Below are positions 19,681-45,670 of a DNA stretch of 64,000 nt, in pieces. Source of the DNA: Persicimonas caeni. GTDB lineage: Bacteria; Myxococcota_A; Bradymonadia; Bradymonadales; Bradymonadaceae. The translations under genes and the position numbers were made by a program. Below the pieces are notes generated by a model that worked only from the letters and a program-made list of their open reading frames with translations, was not told where the DNA came from and searched no databases. The DNA is taken from contig NZ_CP041186.1 in assembly GCF_006517175.1 (NCBI RefSeq), positions 4,367,074 to 4,431,073 on the forward strand, given 5' to 3'. Position 1 is the first letter of the stretch. Each line of letters opens with the position of its first letter.

Positions 19681-19709
19681 GGTCCCTGACACGGTGTCAG
19701 GGACCATGT
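19681..19709. repeat. REP palindrome variant at a convergent junction
   Basis: GGTCCCTGACAC and GTGTCAGGGACC form a 12-bp perfect stem around a single G. The right part (19689-19709) matches the 21-bp REP family except in two bases. It sits between convergent stop codons at 19632 and 19729 and could end transcription from both sides. Confidence 0.8.
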
Positions 19710-24190: not shown

Positions 24191-24374
24191 GTTCCTCTCC
24201 GACATCTCGGCCCGGGCACCGCGTCAGACCCCATGTGGGGGTTGTCGAGGGCGCCAAAGCCACCGTCAGAGACTGGCGACGCCCGCTGCTCCATATCCAA
24301 CGCGGCAGCTAGTGCGCTGACCCCGACAACTCGGCTCGAGCACGGTGTCAGACTCCCTGTGGGGGTTGTCGAGG
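24129..24374. repeat. Tandem duplication of a gene 3' end plus REP repeat
   Basis: A segment of about 122-124 bp occurs twice in direct order (24129-24250 and 24251-24374). It includes the last 20 codons of the upstream gene with its stop (TAA in the first, TAG in the second) and the following spacer with a diverged REP palindrome (24216-24236 and 24340-24360). The copies differ at about a dozen positions. The second copy leaves a coding-like remnant with no start. Confidence 0.9.
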
Positions 24375-27129: not shown

Positions 27130-29466
27130 TCAGAACAGCCACACCTGCCGGTCGGCGAGTCGCTCGAAGTCGACGCCGACTTCGGCGAGGATCGCTTCGG
27201 CGGCGGGTTGGAGCTGCTTGTCGACGTAGTGCTCGTAGTCGATGGGCGAGTCGACCATGTCGTGGGGTTGGGGGCCGGCGTGGGTGATCACGTAGGAGAT
27301 GCGGCGTGGGTTGCCGCCTAAGATCTTGGCGGCGGCCACGTGCGGCGGGGTGTTGGTGTACTCGTCGGGGTGGCGGCGAAGCTTTTTGGTGTAGACGAGC
27401 TCGTCGTCGCGGCGGCCCTCGCGCACGCTGAGCACGACCTCTTTGACCCACGCGCGGATGCCGTCGAGCTCGTCGGCGAAGACGCGGCGAAACAGCTCGA
27501 GCTGGAAGTCGCGGGCGAGCCGGGTCCAGTCGGTGCGCGCGGCCTCCATGCCTTTGACGACCACTTCGGCCTCGCCGCCGGCTCGGAGCACCCACCCGGC
27601 GTAGCGTTTCTTGCTGCCTTCGGTGGAGTTTCGCTTCGTCGGCAAGAAGAAGCGCACGTAGTGGGTCTCGAACTCCATCTCGAGGTGACTCTCCACGCCG
27701 TGCTCGCGGCTGCACCAGTCGCGCCAGTGCCGGTTGACCCGTGCGGCGAGTTGGTGGCCGATGGCGCGGGCTTCGTCGGGGGCGTGCTCGTCGCCGACGC
27801 GCACGAAGACCGAGTCGGTGTCGCCGTAGACGACCTCGTAGCCCAGCTCTTCGATGAGGTCGCGGGTCTCCTGGATGATCTGGTGGCCGCGCATGGTGAT
27901 GGAGCTTGCCAGGCGCGGGTCGAAGAAGCGACAGCCGGTGGTGCCGAGCACGCCGTAAAACGAGTTCATCAAGATCTTGATGGCCGTCGAGCGGGCGGTG
28001 TCGCCGCGTTTCTTGGCCTCGTCGCGCGCGGCCCAGAGCTCCTCGATGAGCCCGGGGAGGATGTGGTCGTCGGGGTGAAAATACGCCTCTCGAAATCCCG
28101 CGATCATGGTGTCAGACACCATGTTGACGCCGTCCTGCACGGTGTCAGACACCATGTTGGAGTCGATCTGGCGCAGGCCCTCGATCAGCCCGTAGGGGTC
28201 GACTTTGAAGGTGCGGATGATGCTCGGGTACAGGCTCTTGAAGTCGAGCACCAGCACGTTGCGAAAGAGGCCGGGCGTCGAGTCCATGACGTAGCCGCCG
28301 GGGCTGTCGGCGCCGTCGGCGTCGTTGTCGATGGTGGGGGCGACGTAGCCTCGCCGGTGCAGCCGGGGAAGGTACAGGTGGTCGAAGGCGGCGACCGAGC
28401 CGCCCAGCCGGTCCATCTCGAGGCCGGTGAGTTGCTGGCGCTCGAGGACGAAGCCCAACAGGTCTTGCTTGGCGAAGATGCGCTGCACCAACACACAGTC
28501 TTTGAGGTTGTAGATGGCGAGTTGGTCGGGCTCGTCGTGGTACAGCCGCAAGATCTCGGCGGCCTTGTCTTCGACCTTCCGGAGCGTCTTGCCCTCGCCG
28601 AGCAGGTGCTGAGAGGTGTACTCGAGCGAGTAGCGCTCGGCGTAGTAGCCCGACGCCTGCAGGGTGGGGCGGCCGTCGAGGACCACGCGCCCCTCGACGT
28701 CGGCGATCATGCCGCCGCGCCGGTTCGTCTTGCGCACGCTCGTTCGGCCTCGGCCGCGCCCGAGCCGAAGGCGCATGCGGTTCTTCTTGGCGCGCTCCAG
28801 CAGTACGCGCAGGTCGAAGCCGATGACGTTCCACCCGGTGAGCACGTCCGGGTCGACCTCCTGCAGCCACGACTGGAACGCGCGAATCACCGCCGCCTCG
28901 CCGTCGCACGAGATAAAGTGCGGGCTGTCGACGTCGGGCCGGTCGACGAAGACGCGCGACTCGTCGCCGCAGACCCCGGCGATGGACAGGACACGGCCGT
29001 GCAGGCCCTCGGTCTCGATGTCGAAGCTGAGCAGGCGAAGCTCGTGGGGGGCGTCGGCGGGCGTGAGCTTCGGGTTGCGCCATTCGAGCACCCCGTTGCG
29101 CCGTCGGGGCTCGCCGTCGATATGCATCGTGCCGGTGATGAACCGCTCCATCAGAAACCGGTCGGACGGCCACACGTCGGCTTCCATCGCCAGGTAGTGC
29201 TGCTCGCGAAGCAGCCGGTCGCGCTCGTCCATCAGCGCGCGCTGGCTTGTGAAGTAGACCGCGTCGACGGGCTTGTGGTCCATCGACTCGAGGTCGACCG
29301 CGCGGCGGGTGCCGGCCTGGGTGGGTACGTCGCGCGCGACGAAGAAGACCGCCGGCTCGCGGTCGACCACGATGCGCCCGGCGCCCTCGTCGAGGCGCAC
29401 CCAGTACTCGAGGTAGAGCCGCCCGCGACTCTCGTACCAGCGTTTTGTGAGCAACGTTCCTTTCAC
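27130..29466 (-). CDS. polB: DNA polymerase II (family B, PolB)
   Basis: 778 residues, close to E. coli Pol II (783). Exonuclease motifs: SFDIETEG (Asp149, Glu151), GWNVIGFDLRVL and AIYNLKDC. Polymerase motifs: DFKSLYPSI (408-416), KILMNSFYG (497-505) and YGDTDS (547-552). RGHQI and KKRYAG match the Pol II subgroup well. It performs error-tolerant synthesis and restart of forks after DNA damage. The start is a GTG at 29466, because Pol II sequences begin with a similar LTKRW segment; no clear ribosome site precedes it. Between motif A and motif B, residues about 436-454 read SNMVSDTVQDGVNMVSDTM, encoded by two in-frame REP palindromes. The frame is open upstream over tandem repeats and another gene's antisense strand, which is not coding. 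Confidence 0.93.
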   Translation of the reverse strand: MKGTLLTKRWYESRGRLYLEYWVRLDEGAGRIVVDREPAVFFVARDVPTQAGTRRAVDLESMDHKPVDAVYFTSQRALMDERDRLLREQHYLAMEADVWPSDRFLMERFITGTMHIDGEPRRRNGVLEWRNPKLTPADAPHELRLLSFDIETEGLHGRVLSIAGVCGDESRVFVDRPDVDSPHFISCDGEAAVIRAFQSWLQEVDPDVLTGWNVIGFDLRVLLERAKKNRMRLRLGRGRGRTSVRKTNRRGGMIADVEGRVVLDGRPTLQASGYYAERYSLEYTSQHLLGEGKTLRKVEDKAAEILRLYHDEPDQLAIYNLKDCVLVQRIFAKQDLLGFVLERQQLTGLEMDRLGGSVAAFDHLYLPRLHRRGYVAPTIDNDADGADSPGGYVMDSTPGLFRNVLVLDFKSLYPSIIRTFKVDPYGLIEGLRQIDSNMVSDTVQDGVNMVSDTMIAGFREAYFHPDDHILPGLIEELWAARDEAKKRGDTARSTAIKILMNSFYGVLGTTGCRFFDPRLASSITMRGHQIIQETRDLIEELGYEVVYGDTDSVFVRVGDEHAPDEARAIGHQLAARVNRHWRDWCSREHGVESHLEMEFETHYVRFFLPTKRNSTEGSKKRYAGWVLRAGGEAEVVVKGMEAARTDWTRLARDFQLELFRRVFADELDGIRAWVKEVVLSVREGRRDDELVYTKKLRRHPDEYTNTPPHVAAAKILGGNPRRISYVITHAGPQPHDMVDSPIDYEHYVDKQLQPAAEAILAEVGVDFERLADRQVWLF
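28104..28157. repeat. Two REP palindromes inside polB
   Basis: Copies at 28104-28124 and 28137-28157, in direct order, each with core GGTGTCAGACACC. They match the 21-bp family in 19 and 20 positions. Read on the coding strand they give two copies of the peptide NMVSDT. Confidence 0.93.
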
Positions 29467-31310: not shown

Positions 31311-31373
31311 ACACGGTGTCAGACACCATGTCGGCCGCATGAAATCTGGCGCACATGGTGTCTGACACCGTGT
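31311..31373. repeat. REPIN-like inverted pair at a convergent junction
   Basis: A 21-bp REP (31311-31331) and its exact reverse complement (31353-31373) are separated by 21 bp. Both have core GGTGTC-GACACC. A further half-site (CAGACACCATC) follows at 31378. This is the layout of a REPIN, two REPs in opposite order. It sits between the convergent lipoprotein and kinase genes. Confidence 0.93.
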
Positions 31374-34270: not shown

Positions 34271-36760
34271 TCAGGGACCGGCGAGCAGAGTTTCGAGGTC
34301 GAATTGGCCGGCGCCGATGAGCGGCGAGGAGCCGATGGCGTAGATGTCGACGTCGTCGGGCAGCGCCTCTTCGTCGTCGTCGAAGTCGAATTTGGTCAGC
34401 AGCTCGACCTGGCTCGGCTCGGCCATCCACAGCATGGCGTAGCCGACGACGAAGCCGGTGGGCTCGTCGAGGTCGTTGAAGATTCCGTCTTCGGCCAGGT
34501 CGGAGAGCTCGGGGACGAGGCGCTCGAGGACCTTGGCCTTGTGCTCGGCCAGGCTGGCCAGGCGCATGTCTTGCTGGGAGTCGACCGGGATGAGGACCAT
34601 CTGGGACTCGTCGCCGACGGCCTCGCCGTCGATTTGCATGGTGGCCAGGGCCTCGTAGTCGGCGAACTGGACGGTGGCGTCGGCGTACAGCGCGGCCATC
34701 TCGGCGATGCGCTCGCGGCGGTCGTCGACGTAGTCGTCGAGGTCGTCGGTCTTGTCGGCCAACGTGCGGTCGCGTTCGGCGGCCATCAGGCGCAGGACCT
34801 GCTCGACGGCGAGTTCGAAGTCTTGGTGGCGGCCGGGGACCATCAGGTGGTGCACGGCGTCGTCGCTAAAGCGCACCTGGGTGAGCATGCGGCCCTCGGG
34901 GTTGCCCATGAAGTCGCCGCGGGCGGAGATCCCGAGCTTGAACGCCAGGAGCTTGCGGGTGATGTCGGCGGAGTTGCCCTCGACGAAGCCCGAGCGCAGC
35001 GCGCCGGCGAGCACCTGCTCGTTGGCGGCGGCGACGGCGTCTTTTTGCGAGATATACTCCGGGGAGGTCGGCAGCGCGTCGATGCACTCGCGGTAGGCGC
35101 GTCGCTCGGCGTAATCGGCTTGGTGGCCCGGGCGCGGGCACTGGTTGTCGACCCAGTCGAGCAGGGCGTCGTGCTCGGCGCTGATGCCGGCGTAGAAGGG
35201 CTCGAAGCCGACGAAGTAGCCGGCCAGGGCGTCGACGTGGTCGAGCATTTGGTCACGGTCGAAGAACTTGTCGTCCTCGCGAAGGGTGATGCGGGCGTTG
35301 ACGCTGGCGTCGGTCAGCCTGCCGTCGCGGCTCTGGAGCGAGACGAGGGTGCGCCAGCTGGTGTTGCGGTTGGTGAAGAAGAGGCCCGACTTGTCCTCGA
35401 TCTCGGTGAAGAGGAGCGTCTGGTTTTGGCCGTCGGCCGAGATTTGGACCGTGCCGGTGTCGAAGCCGTTGGCGCGGTAGAACTCCATGCCCAGAAAGCG
35501 GAAGCCGATATAGTCGGACTCGGAGCGGTGCTCCTTGGTCAGGTCGAGCTCCTGGACGACGCCCTCGCCGCCGCGGTTGGCGAGCGCCTGGGCGAGGCGG
35601 ATGTCGCCGCGAAGCGACTGGGCGAGGGCCTGCTCGACCTCGTCGCTCGTGCGGGCGAGGTCGAAGCGAAAGCGCGCCACGGTCAGTCGGGAGGTCTGCG
35701 AGGAGCTGGTCGCCGAGACCGACGGGGTCAGACGCTCGTTGAGCTGCTTGCGCAGCGCCTTTTCGGCGATGTCGTCGAGGCTCATGTTCAGGGGGCCGAG
35801 ATCGACGTTGACCTCGGGGAGTCCCTCGACGCCGAAGCCGGTCTCGAGGGCGACCGAGAAGTGGCGAAGGTGTTGGTTGGCCACGCCGACGTCGACCCAG
35901 ACGTCGTCGTTGGTGCCGCGCACCAGTTGGACGTCGAGCTTGCCGCCGAGGGCCACGCGGGCGCCGAAGCTCGCGCGGGCGTGCAGCGAGACGAAGTCGG
36001 TCAGGGTGCCCAGCAGGAAGGGGACGCCCACGCCCAGGTTCAAGCCGAGGGTGCCGTCGGCGCGCATGGCCAGGCTCTCGCCGGGGGCCATGGCGCGCAC
36101 GTCGTCGGCGTGGCGGGGCAGGACAAATTCGCGGGCCGAGCCGATGGCCGACAGCGGGTTGTCGACGATGGCGTCGACGCGGTCTTCGTAGGGGGCGATG
36201 ACCACCGATTCGATGGAGGCGTCGGCGTTGAAGCCGACGTTGCCGACGGCGTCGCCGTGGGACAGGCCCCAGTTGGTGCCCAGCGAGGGGCCGACCTCGA
36301 AGTGGCTCTCGGCGAAGACCATGTCGGGGTTGGCCGCGAGGGCTTCTTGGCGGATGCCGACGATTTTGGTGGCGAAGGCGTCTTCACCGAGGCGCTCGGT
36401 GAGGCCGGCGCGAAGTTGGCCGATGTCGTGGACGACCGTCTCGCCGAAGACGTCTTCTTGGGCGCCGAACAGCGAGGTCGGCGAGAGCTCGATCTGGCTG
36501 TAGGGCACGTCGGCGAGTTGGCCGTTGAGTTCGTCGGTGGCCAGGCCCGCGCCGAGGACGGTCAAGTCGTCGAGCTCGACCGACTTCATGTCGCTGTAGA
36601 GGTCGGCGAAGCGGTCGGAGAACGAGTCGCACTTGGCGCCGGTGCAGGTGGGCTGGGAGGTCTGGGGCGCCGGCTCTTTGTGCTCGTCGGCCACGCATCC
36701 GGTGAGGGCAAAGAGGGAGACGGCCGAAGCAAAGAGCAGCTTCTTGGATCGAATCAGCAT
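34271..36760 (-). CDS. Large lipoprotein of unknown function
   Basis: 829 residues. Lipobox ALTGC (Cys22) with two further cysteines in the linker (CTGAKCDSFSD). Residues 50-330 include beta-rich segments (TLGLNLGVGVPFLLGTLTDFVSLHARASFGARVALGGKLDVQLV), and residues 480-760 are helical with many charged residues (RRERIAEMAALYADATVQFADYEALATM). There are no membrane helices after the signal. Likely exposed on the outer membrane or in the periplasm. I do not recognise a domain, and the neighbours do not help. It is close in length and layout to large secreted proteins found in this bacterial group, but I cannot prove homology. Confidence 0.8.
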   Translation of the reverse strand: MLIRSKKLLFASAVSLFALTGCVADEHKEPAPQTSQPTCTGAKCDSFSDRFADLYSDMKSVELDDLTVLGAGLATDELNGQLADVPYSQIELSPTSLFGAQEDVFGETVVHDIGQLRAGLTERLGEDAFATKIVGIRQEALAANPDMVFAESHFEVGPSLGTNWGLSHGDAVGNVGFNADASIESVVIAPYEDRVDAIVDNPLSAIGSAREFVLPRHADDVRAMAPGESLAMRADGTLGLNLGVGVPFLLGTLTDFVSLHARASFGARVALGGKLDVQLVRGTNDDVWVDVGVANQHLRHFSVALETGFGVEGLPEVNVDLGPLNMSLDDIAEKALRKQLNERLTPSVSATSSSQTSRLTVARFRFDLARTSDEVEQALAQSLRGDIRLAQALANRGGEGVVQELDLTKEHRSESDYIGFRFLGMEFYRANGFDTGTVQISADGQNQTLLFTEIEDKSGLFFTNRNTSWRTLVSLQSRDGRLTDASVNARITLREDDKFFDRDQMLDHVDALAGYFVGFEPFYAGISAEHDALLDWVDNQCPRPGHQADYAERRAYRECIDALPTSPEYISQKDAVAAANEQVLAGALRSGFVEGNSADITRKLLAFKLGISARGDFMGNPEGRMLTQVRFSDDAVHHLMVPGRHQDFELAVEQVLRLMAAERDRTLADKTDDLDDYVDDRRERIAEMAALYADATVQFADYEALATMQIDGEAVGDESQMVLIPVDSQQDMRLASLAEHKAKVLERLVPELSDLAEDGIFNDLDEPTGFVVGYAMLWMAEPSQVELLTKFDFDDDEEALPDDVDIYAIGSSPLIGAGQFDLETLLAGP

Positions 36761-37113
36761 GCAAACACTCTCTCGCGCCCGCGGGGCGGGCGATCATGTT
36801 CATCAGCAAAGTGCGAAAGTCTGTAACGCTCCACCCCTACCACGGCCTTGACGGAGGCGTCAAAGTTGGGCGGTGCGCGGGGGGCCTCGTGCAGATTTCG
36901 AAACAGAAATCACCCCCCGATCTCGCCCCACCCCCAACACGGTGTCAGACACCATGTTGTCCAGCATTCATGGGCATCTGAGCGCGATCCTCGGTGCTCG
37001 CGTCGCACATCGTTCCGCGAAAAAGTTGGCTCGAACACGCAACGATTCGGCCCCTTTTGCCGAAAACCGTATTGAGGGCTGTCGATGAACCTTCACCTTA
37101 CGGAGACTGGCAG
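36761..37113. other. Spacer left of the RAYT gene
   Basis: 353 bp between the large lipoprotein start and the transposase start. It contains the left REP copy (36937-36957) and no other clear signal. Part of it, 36994-37113, is in frame with the transposase but has no typical family sequence. Confidence 0.5.
36937..36957. repeat. REP palindrome, left of RAYT
   Basis: Exact 21-bp family copy with core GGTGTCAGACACC, 157 bp before the transposase ATG. Its exact reverse complement lies at 38336-38356. Confidence 0.93.
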
Positions 37114-38085
37114 ATGGGACAACCGCTCAGGCAGCAAGAAAAGGACGCGATTTACGAAATCGTCAACCGCACGCTCCACCAGTTCCACGGGCTCAAGCCA
37201 GGCGAGGAGGTCAACAAGATCATCTTGGGACTCTTGGCCAAGTACGCATGGATCTACGGCGTGGAGATCTTTGCATTTTGCTTTATGTCGAACCACTTCC
37301 ACATCGTGGCGCGCTGCCGTTCGCTGCAGCTCCACCTGTTCATGCGTGACTTCCAGAGCCAGCTGGCGCGCAAGCTGAACAAGCTTCACAACCGCACGGG
37401 CACTTTCTGGGAGCGCCGCTACACGGCCACCAAGATCTTGGACGACGACGCGCTGATCGACCGGCTTCGCTACACGGTATGCAACCCGTGCGAGTCGGAC
37501 CTGGTGAGTCATCCGAAGCGGTGGCCCGGGCTTTGCTCCTGGGACATCCACCACAGCGGCGAGCCCATGTGGGGAGAGGTGGTCGACAGGGAGACGTACT
37601 GGCGCGAGAAGCGAAAGAAGAAGAATGAAGACAAGACCGAGGCCGAGCTCATCGAGATGGCCACGGTGCGCTACCCTCTCGAGATGGCCAAGCTCCCGCA
37701 GTGGAAGGACCTCGACGACGAGGCCTACCACGCAAAGATTGTCGAGGAGTGCCACAAGCACGCCGGGCAGCTGGCCGAAAATCGCTGCAAGCCGTGCCTG
37801 GGCCCAAAGAAGGTGCTCGCCCAGAAGTGGTCGAGCCGTCCTGCAAATCCGAAAAAGGCGCCGCGTCCGCTGTGTCACGGAGGCGACCCCGAGCAGCGCG
37901 AGGAGTATCGCAAGCATCGCTGGGACGTGGCCGACAGCTACAAAGAGGCGGTCGGAAAGTGGCGCGAGGGAAAGACGCCGGTCAACCGGATCGAGTTTCC
38001 CGAGGGGACGATCCCGCCAGGCCACCAGTTCTGCTACGGGTGCAAGGGTCAGTTCAACATGACCGTGCCGCCACGGCCCGCTTGA
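37114..38085 (+). CDS. REP-associated tyrosine transposase (RAYT, Y1_Tnp)
   Basis: 323 residues. The single-strand transposase core covers residues 10-140: entry strand DAIYEIVNRT, the HUH metal motif as FMSNHFHIVARC (His-Phe-His), an amphipathic helix LFMRDFQSQLARKLNKLHNRTG, then FWERRYTATKIL and RLRYTVCNPCESDLV, which includes the conserved tyrosine region. The C-terminal 180 residues are basic and Cys-containing (CYGCKG near the end, CKPC in the middle), so a zinc-binding or DNA-binding tail is possible. RAYTs cut and join single-stranded REP hairpins. The exact inverted REPs on both sides support that role. Start chosen at 37114 with GGAG nine bases upstream; an earlier start is possible. 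Confidence 0.85.
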   Translation: MGQPLRQQEKDAIYEIVNRTLHQFHGLKPGEEVNKIILGLLAKYAWIYGVEIFAFCFMSNHFHIVARCRSLQLHLFMRDFQSQLARKLNKLHNRTGTFWERRYTATKILDDDALIDRLRYTVCNPCESDLVSHPKRWPGLCSWDIHHSGEPMWGEVVDRETYWREKRKKKNEDKTEAELIEMATVRYPLEMAKLPQWKDLDDEAYHAKIVEECHKHAGQLAENRCKPCLGPKKVLAQKWSSRPANPKKAPRPLCHGGDPEQREEYRKHRWDVADSYKEAVGKWREGKTPVNRIEFPEGTIPPGHQFCYGCKGQFNMTVPPRPA

Positions 38086-38430
38086 GGCGACCTCCCGTCG
38101 TCGATTCGAGAAGCTCCAGCCATTGTCCCCCGCCCGCTCTCGCGACCTGTGCCGTGAGCCTGCCGAAGTACGTCTATCCGATGACGTTCCCCGCCGTTTT
38201 TCGACCGACGAGCCCGCCAAATCGCAGCCGACTTCGACTCGATGTGTGCTGCTGCCGGTGTGACCTTCGTCATCACGCCGAATTAACTCGTCGAGCTTGG
38301 TCGAAACGTGCTGTGAGCCGCATTACTGCTGCATGACATGGTGTCTGACACCGTGTGGGGGGGCAGCCACGCCGTCGTGCACCGACGGGGGGCGCTTCTT
38401 CATTCCGTTGAGTCGATTGGTCGCAGTCAA
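38086..38430. other. Spacer between RAYT and hmgA with right REP
   Basis: Contains the right REP copy and no recognised gene. The region 38100-38330 shows short, unconvincing frames only. Confidence 0.5.
38336..38356. repeat. REP palindrome, right of RAYT (inverted)
   Basis: Exact reverse complement of the 36937-36957 copy, followed by a G-run. Together the two give the RAYT gene perfect 21-bp inverted flanks about 1.4 kb apart. Confidence 0.93.
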
Positions 38431-45647: not shown

Positions 45648-45670
45648 TACACGGTGTCCGACACCGTGTA
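45648..45670. repeat. REP palindrome after the response regulator gene
   Basis: TACACGGTGTC and GACACCGTGTA form a perfect 11-bp stem around one C. It is the most symmetrical member of the REP family here, 54 bp after the stop codon, and may end the operon transcript. Confidence 0.88.

Follow-up and report, generated by a model that had tools for sequence, protein, structure and literature searches.

REPtrons carry REPs with a GT[AG]G foot, and TIRtrons are bounded by terminal inverted repeats (TIRs), some of which are self-complementary and dispersed (Di Nocera 2013 PMC3733652; Quentin 2018 PMC6006769). The TIRYT/TIRtron enzymes fall mostly into subclass 2.1, which has a C-terminal HTH domain (Quentin 2018 PMC6006769), and a GGGGWSAS motif is found in the TIRs of the majority of TIRtron examples, not all (Di Nocera 2013 PMC3733652). 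We analyzed a 64,000-nucleotide stretch of the chromosome of Persicimonas caeni, phylum Myxococcota, referred to here as the window, in which a sequence-only reading had assigned a transposase gene and its flanking palindromes to the REP/RAYT class. That assignment gives way to another: because a GT[AG]G foot is missing from the palindrome, which lies subterminal to a conserved left end, the TIRYT/TIRtron kind best fits the sequence of the locus, better than a GTAG-type REPtron. Our main reading, to which we give a probability of roughly 0.75, treats the locus as an autonomous, multicopy transposon of the single-strand (Y1/HUH) type, a member of the TIRYT/RAYT branch whose palindrome also seeded a REP-like family.

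Two exact inverted 21-bp palindromes enclose the Y1/HUH transposase gene, both where they had been reported and far above chance. The left subterminal palindrome, ACACGGTGTCAGACACCATGT (36937–36957, + strand), is predicted by single-strand folding to form a hairpin, with the complementary strand folding better, and the sequence search returned its exact reverse complement as the right subterminal palindrome (38336–38356, – strand). Outside the left palindrome lies an outer segment (36901–36936, + strand) that opens with AAACAGAAA, continues C-rich, is kept in 17/17 copies of the element and has in its first bases a sharp left boundary. Inside each palindrome, alignment of the copies revealed an extra inverted-repeat stretch (..TTCATGCGC.TCTGAG..): the inner portion of the left inverted repeat (36958–36993, + strand, containing CAGCATTCATGGGCATCTGAG) has its inverted echo beside the right palindrome, in the inner portion of the right inverted repeat (38291–38335, – strand). 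The transposase gene (37114–38085, + strand) is followed by a conserved 3' segment (38086–38170, + strand) that includes a hairpin-like stretch, CTCTCGCG...CGTGAG, and then by a variable spacer (38171–38290, + strand), almost constant in length and unrelated in most copies. The G-rich right edge (38357–38364, + strand), whose exact end is uncertain, was placed by alignment to the copy at 2.956 Mb, where homology to the window copy ends at 38362. Immediately left of the element is an 829-aa open reading frame (34271–36760, – strand) whose start resembles a signal peptide and which matches no Pfam family.

The gene product matches Pfam Y1_Tnp (E=1e-8, above the cut-off). Its start was set at the MG(H/Q/Y)PLR sequence common to 17/17 paralogues, giving a protein of 323 aa; the open reading frame start at 36994 was dropped because it is not conserved among the paralogues. 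The HUH motif is NHFH (N60-H61-F-H63) and the putative catalytic tyrosine is Y120 in YTVCNP; N60, H61, H63 and Y120 are invariant in an alignment of 25 sequences, and the 17 paralogues have a Y---NP motif (YTVCNP, YIVCNP and similar) rather than the Y---Q motif of class 1. The predicted structure (pLDDT 92, pTM 0.90) found its best fold match in 4er8 (Z 15.5, 158 residues, 3.0 A), the REP-bound E. coli REP-associated transposase (RAYT), followed by IS608 (Z 9.4). The Pfam and fold matches bear out the earlier identification of a single-strand HUH transposase. Against the NCBIfam model REP_Tyr_transpos, the enzyme scored 56, below the cut-off of 80. A C-terminal extension of ~180 aa, with the motif LG..KVL..RP..P...PRPLCH....YR....FP.GTIPPG, runs throughout the family, relatives included; it is helical in the predicted structure, and the Pfam search of the enzyme matched no HTH family. 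This extension, and two CxxC motifs in the tail of the window copy, had been pointed out before and are present. Zinc binding by the tail is nevertheless unlikely, and was discarded as a family trait, because the extension is family-wide yet the CxxC pairs are missing from most paralogues in the alignment.

The genome contains 26 Y1 domains, 17 of which form one dispersed family with intact frames. All 17 copies have the left palindrome and 15/17 the right one, at a spacing of 1382–1457 bp. The left-end segment common to the 17 has an abrupt start at AAACAGAAA, slightly varied in a few copies, 36–48 nt outside the palindrome across copies and 36 nt outside it in the window copy, and the sequence left of that start is unrelated between copies. 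Over 1469 bp, the window copy matches the one at 2.956 Mb with 96.3% identity, and the flanks of the two are unrelated; coding-sequence identity within the family is about 74–99%, unlike the near-identical copies of class 1. Alignment of the copies disclosed no fixed target tetranucleotide left of AAACAGAAA. Single-strand transposition frequently yields a replication-linked orientation bias; by GC skew, the elements showed none with respect to replication (9:8). This anatomy, with its subterminal hairpins, reads as that of a mobile element rather than of a lone domesticated gene, and we infer that the element is mobile. The proposal of a RAYT with its REPs thus holds for the RAYT-like enzyme and for a genome-wide palindrome family, and fails in that the gene is no lone RAYT, being one of 17 IS-like copies. 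Two more long Y1 genes, from a related subfamily (G000:C1:3893382 and 6775860), have no detectable member of this palindrome family at their ends.

A 19-bp search of the window allowing ≤3 mismatches returned 17 strand matches, compared with 0.02 expected from shuffled sequence. The further copies that had been reported, some perfect and some drifted, were confirmed: drifted solo palindromes at ~19.69 kb (19691–19709, + strand) and 24.34 kb (24342–24360, + strand); two solo palindromes 33 bp apart at 28.11 and 28.14 kb (28104–28157, – strand), in frame in a DNA polymerase II gene; an inverted pair at 31.31 and 31.36 kb (31311–31373) with core starts 42 bp apart and an element-end motif between them, a putative mini-element or REPIN-like relic; and a solo palindrome with a C/G centre at 45.65 kb (45649–45669), seen in both the window and genome searches. 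Across the genome (8,047,206 bp, one contig), the 13-bp core GGTGTCAGACACC has 96 exact sites (47+49), and the reversed core, used as a control, has 0; the 21-mer with ≤3 mismatches has 190 sites (control 0). The same core occurs ≤3 times per genome in 142 related genomes, those with homologous enzymes included. The palindrome family is essentially confined to the enzyme-bearing genome, and the repeat is neither restricted to the window nor as frequent where the enzyme is missing. Its consensus is ACAY-GGTGTCAGACACC-RTGT, the RTGT side being stronger, and the feet are ACAY/RTGT in place of the GT[AG]G of RAYT-associated REPs. The enzyme had no match in the plasmid or the phage collection, and the 21-mer was missing from viral contigs, so that spread via plasmids or phages is unsupported; the viral contigs yielded one distant relative of the enzyme. 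A scan of named genomes with a single-sequence query, an insensitive search, returned only one distant Parcubacteria relative, and a literature search with the palindrome sequence gave no match.

The distribution of solo palindromes was assessed for about 70 exact cores in fetched genome regions, with genes called by a home-made codon model. Intergenic positions hold 43/70 (~16% expected; p about 2e-17), and neighboring copies are often spaced 33–34 bp apart. The remaining 27 lie within predicted genes, and 23/27 are read in one frame, as (T/M)VSDT, where codon usage predicts 0.13; one of the 23 sits upstream of polB proper, in a spurious extension of that gene, leaving about 22. A DTVS-rich low-complexity peptide was ruled out as the source of these copies, because they encode Ser by TCA/TCT, which make up 6% of Ser codons, and versions with TCG/TCC are almost absent. 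The doublet in the DNA polymerase II gene (27133–29466, – strand) falls in frame in a loop, and the protein has an insert of 15 aa when compared with E. coli 1q8i and, by eye, of 18 aa when compared with its orthologue in the relative G004. At E<=1e-100, DNA polymerase II was found in only 1/38 near relatives, namely G004. PbpC has a palindrome-bearing insert that is missing in orthologues, as is a 16-aa insert in a proton-antiporter subunit. PfkB (genome 2504975) and MobA (genome 1466139) each contain the full 21-mer with length unchanged, relative to orthologues and to a distant homologue, respectively, as if the palindrome had overwritten existing sequence. An Eco57I-type methylase gene (genome 3992562) contains four 63-bp in-frame tandem repeats, each opening with an intact or drifted palindrome. 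Intragenic palindromes are already known from the Rickettsia palindromic elements (RPEs) and from intragenic REPs; the RPEs likewise lie in frame within protein genes, whereas the palindromes here are tied to a resident transposon family.

Set against described systems, the locus shares with TIRYT/TIRtrons a class-2 Y1/HUH enzyme related to TnpA-REP with a C-terminal extension, and flanking terminal inverted repeats, self-complementary in some cases, that make up dispersed families in which dimers occur. What is new relative to known TIRtrons is the high copy number (17 intact copies per genome), the conserved IS-like left end, the distinct C-terminal domain (no HTH match) and the many in-frame intragenic palindromes, in a single frame. 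GGGGWSAS is inconsistent, with some right ends fitting (3400331: GGGGTCAG) and the window copy not. Subclass 2.3 TnpA-Y1 resembles the family in its long protein (median 325 aa) and several moderately similar copies per genome, but has a 55-aa core insertion and NHYH/YVDLNP motifs, where the present enzyme has no insertion and NHFH/YTVCNP, and flanking palindromes, present here, were not found for it (Quentin 2018 PMC6006769). The IS200/IS605 elements (IS608, ISDra2) are likewise multicopy, with the HUH/Y1 fold and with hairpins placed subterminally, at a different distance from each end; here, in contrast, the Y motif is of class 2, the copies are divergent (not about 99% identical), the ends are inverted repeats and free palindromes have spread separately.

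If the locus is such a TIRYT-type transposon, the transposase would recognize the hairpin that the palindrome forms in single-stranded DNA and would cut beside it via Tyr120. The whole element could then move with both palindromes serving as ends, and the palindrome alone could also move, which would seed the REP-like family; palindromes landing in genes would persist if the frame is kept and the tolerated peptide (T/M)VSDT is encoded. An alternative that we regard as unlikely is that the IS family is ageing and has left its solo palindromes behind as leftover ends, deletion relics that were never independently mobile. A few solos do retain inner end sequence (3399207, 5581536 and the window pair at 31.31–31.37 kb), as relics should, but most consist of the 21-bp palindrome only, with none of the conserved left-end segment, and relics would be neither in-frame gene inserts nor length-neutral in MobA and PfkB. 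It is highly improbable that the palindrome serves as a terminator or binding site with no link to the transposase and is merely carried by the elements: the strong extragenic enrichment would suit such a site, whereas its presence at both ends at a fixed distance in 15/17 elements, its near absence from relatives without this element and the different repeats that occupy the same place in sister elements would not.

The classical GTAG-type REP/RAYT arrangement, in which a domesticated low-copy transposase maintains REPs, draws on likenesses to the described RAYT/REPtrons: inverted palindromes bracket the gene, the repeats are mainly extragenic and dispersed, the nearest fold is the E. coli RAYT (4er8) and the Y---NP motif is shared (Nunvar 2010 PMC2817692; Quentin 2018 PMC6006769). 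The dN/dS of 0.05–0.15 in the closest paralogue pairs is also as for a gene under selection. This arrangement is nonetheless very unlikely to apply, given 17 copies instead of a low copy number, the missing GTAG/GTGG foot, the sub-threshold REP_Tyr_transpos score, the IS-like left end that is conserved 36 nt beyond the palindrome and the extension of roughly 180 aa.

The right spacers add a further feature to the preferred transposon reading. They are unrelated in pairs whose genes share 93–99% identity, and the window and 2.956-Mb copies have related ones (about 84%). Recent capture of host DNA was considered as their source and is unsupported; the one spacer searched, from one of the two closest copies, had no second copy in the genome. 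Since right spacers are unrelated even between copies with 99% identical genes, the simplest reading, we infer, is that gene conversion acts between old copies and would homogenize the left end and the gene and not the spacers. A bolder version, distinctly unlikely in our judgement, is that the palindromes spread partly by overwriting, that selection and gene conversion preserve the function of the 17 transposases, and that an enzyme nick at the palindrome starts copying from another copy; if true, the transposase would be a genome-wide gene-conversion and repeat-writing enzyme, not a cut-and-paste one.

These observations bear on the origin and spread of REP palindromes and on whether enzymes of the RAYT type move or have been domesticated, in that one genome contains both states, an IS-like element in many intact copies and, with the same sequence, a family of free palindromes. 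In-frame copies in conserved proteins would represent single acquisition events, datable via orthologues. Sister enzymes in other genomes (G008, G006, G003 and G133) occupy similar spans bracketed by other inverted repeats, which indicates, judging from these sequences, that enzyme and repeat change together across sister genera. Since this enzyme family is paired with different repeats in the sister genera, a direct test could be made of how enzyme and repeat co-evolve and of how an IS end turns into a REP. The G006 repeat, GGTCGGCTCCCCTGAGGC, brackets several of the eight enzyme copies in that genome, and the G008 repeat, GGTGCCACCCAC, has 25 exact copies in its genome. Distant from the G008 enzyme, 11 copies of GGTGCCACCCAC lie together at G008:C1:4471624-4471991, mostly as a tandem array with a 34-bp period.
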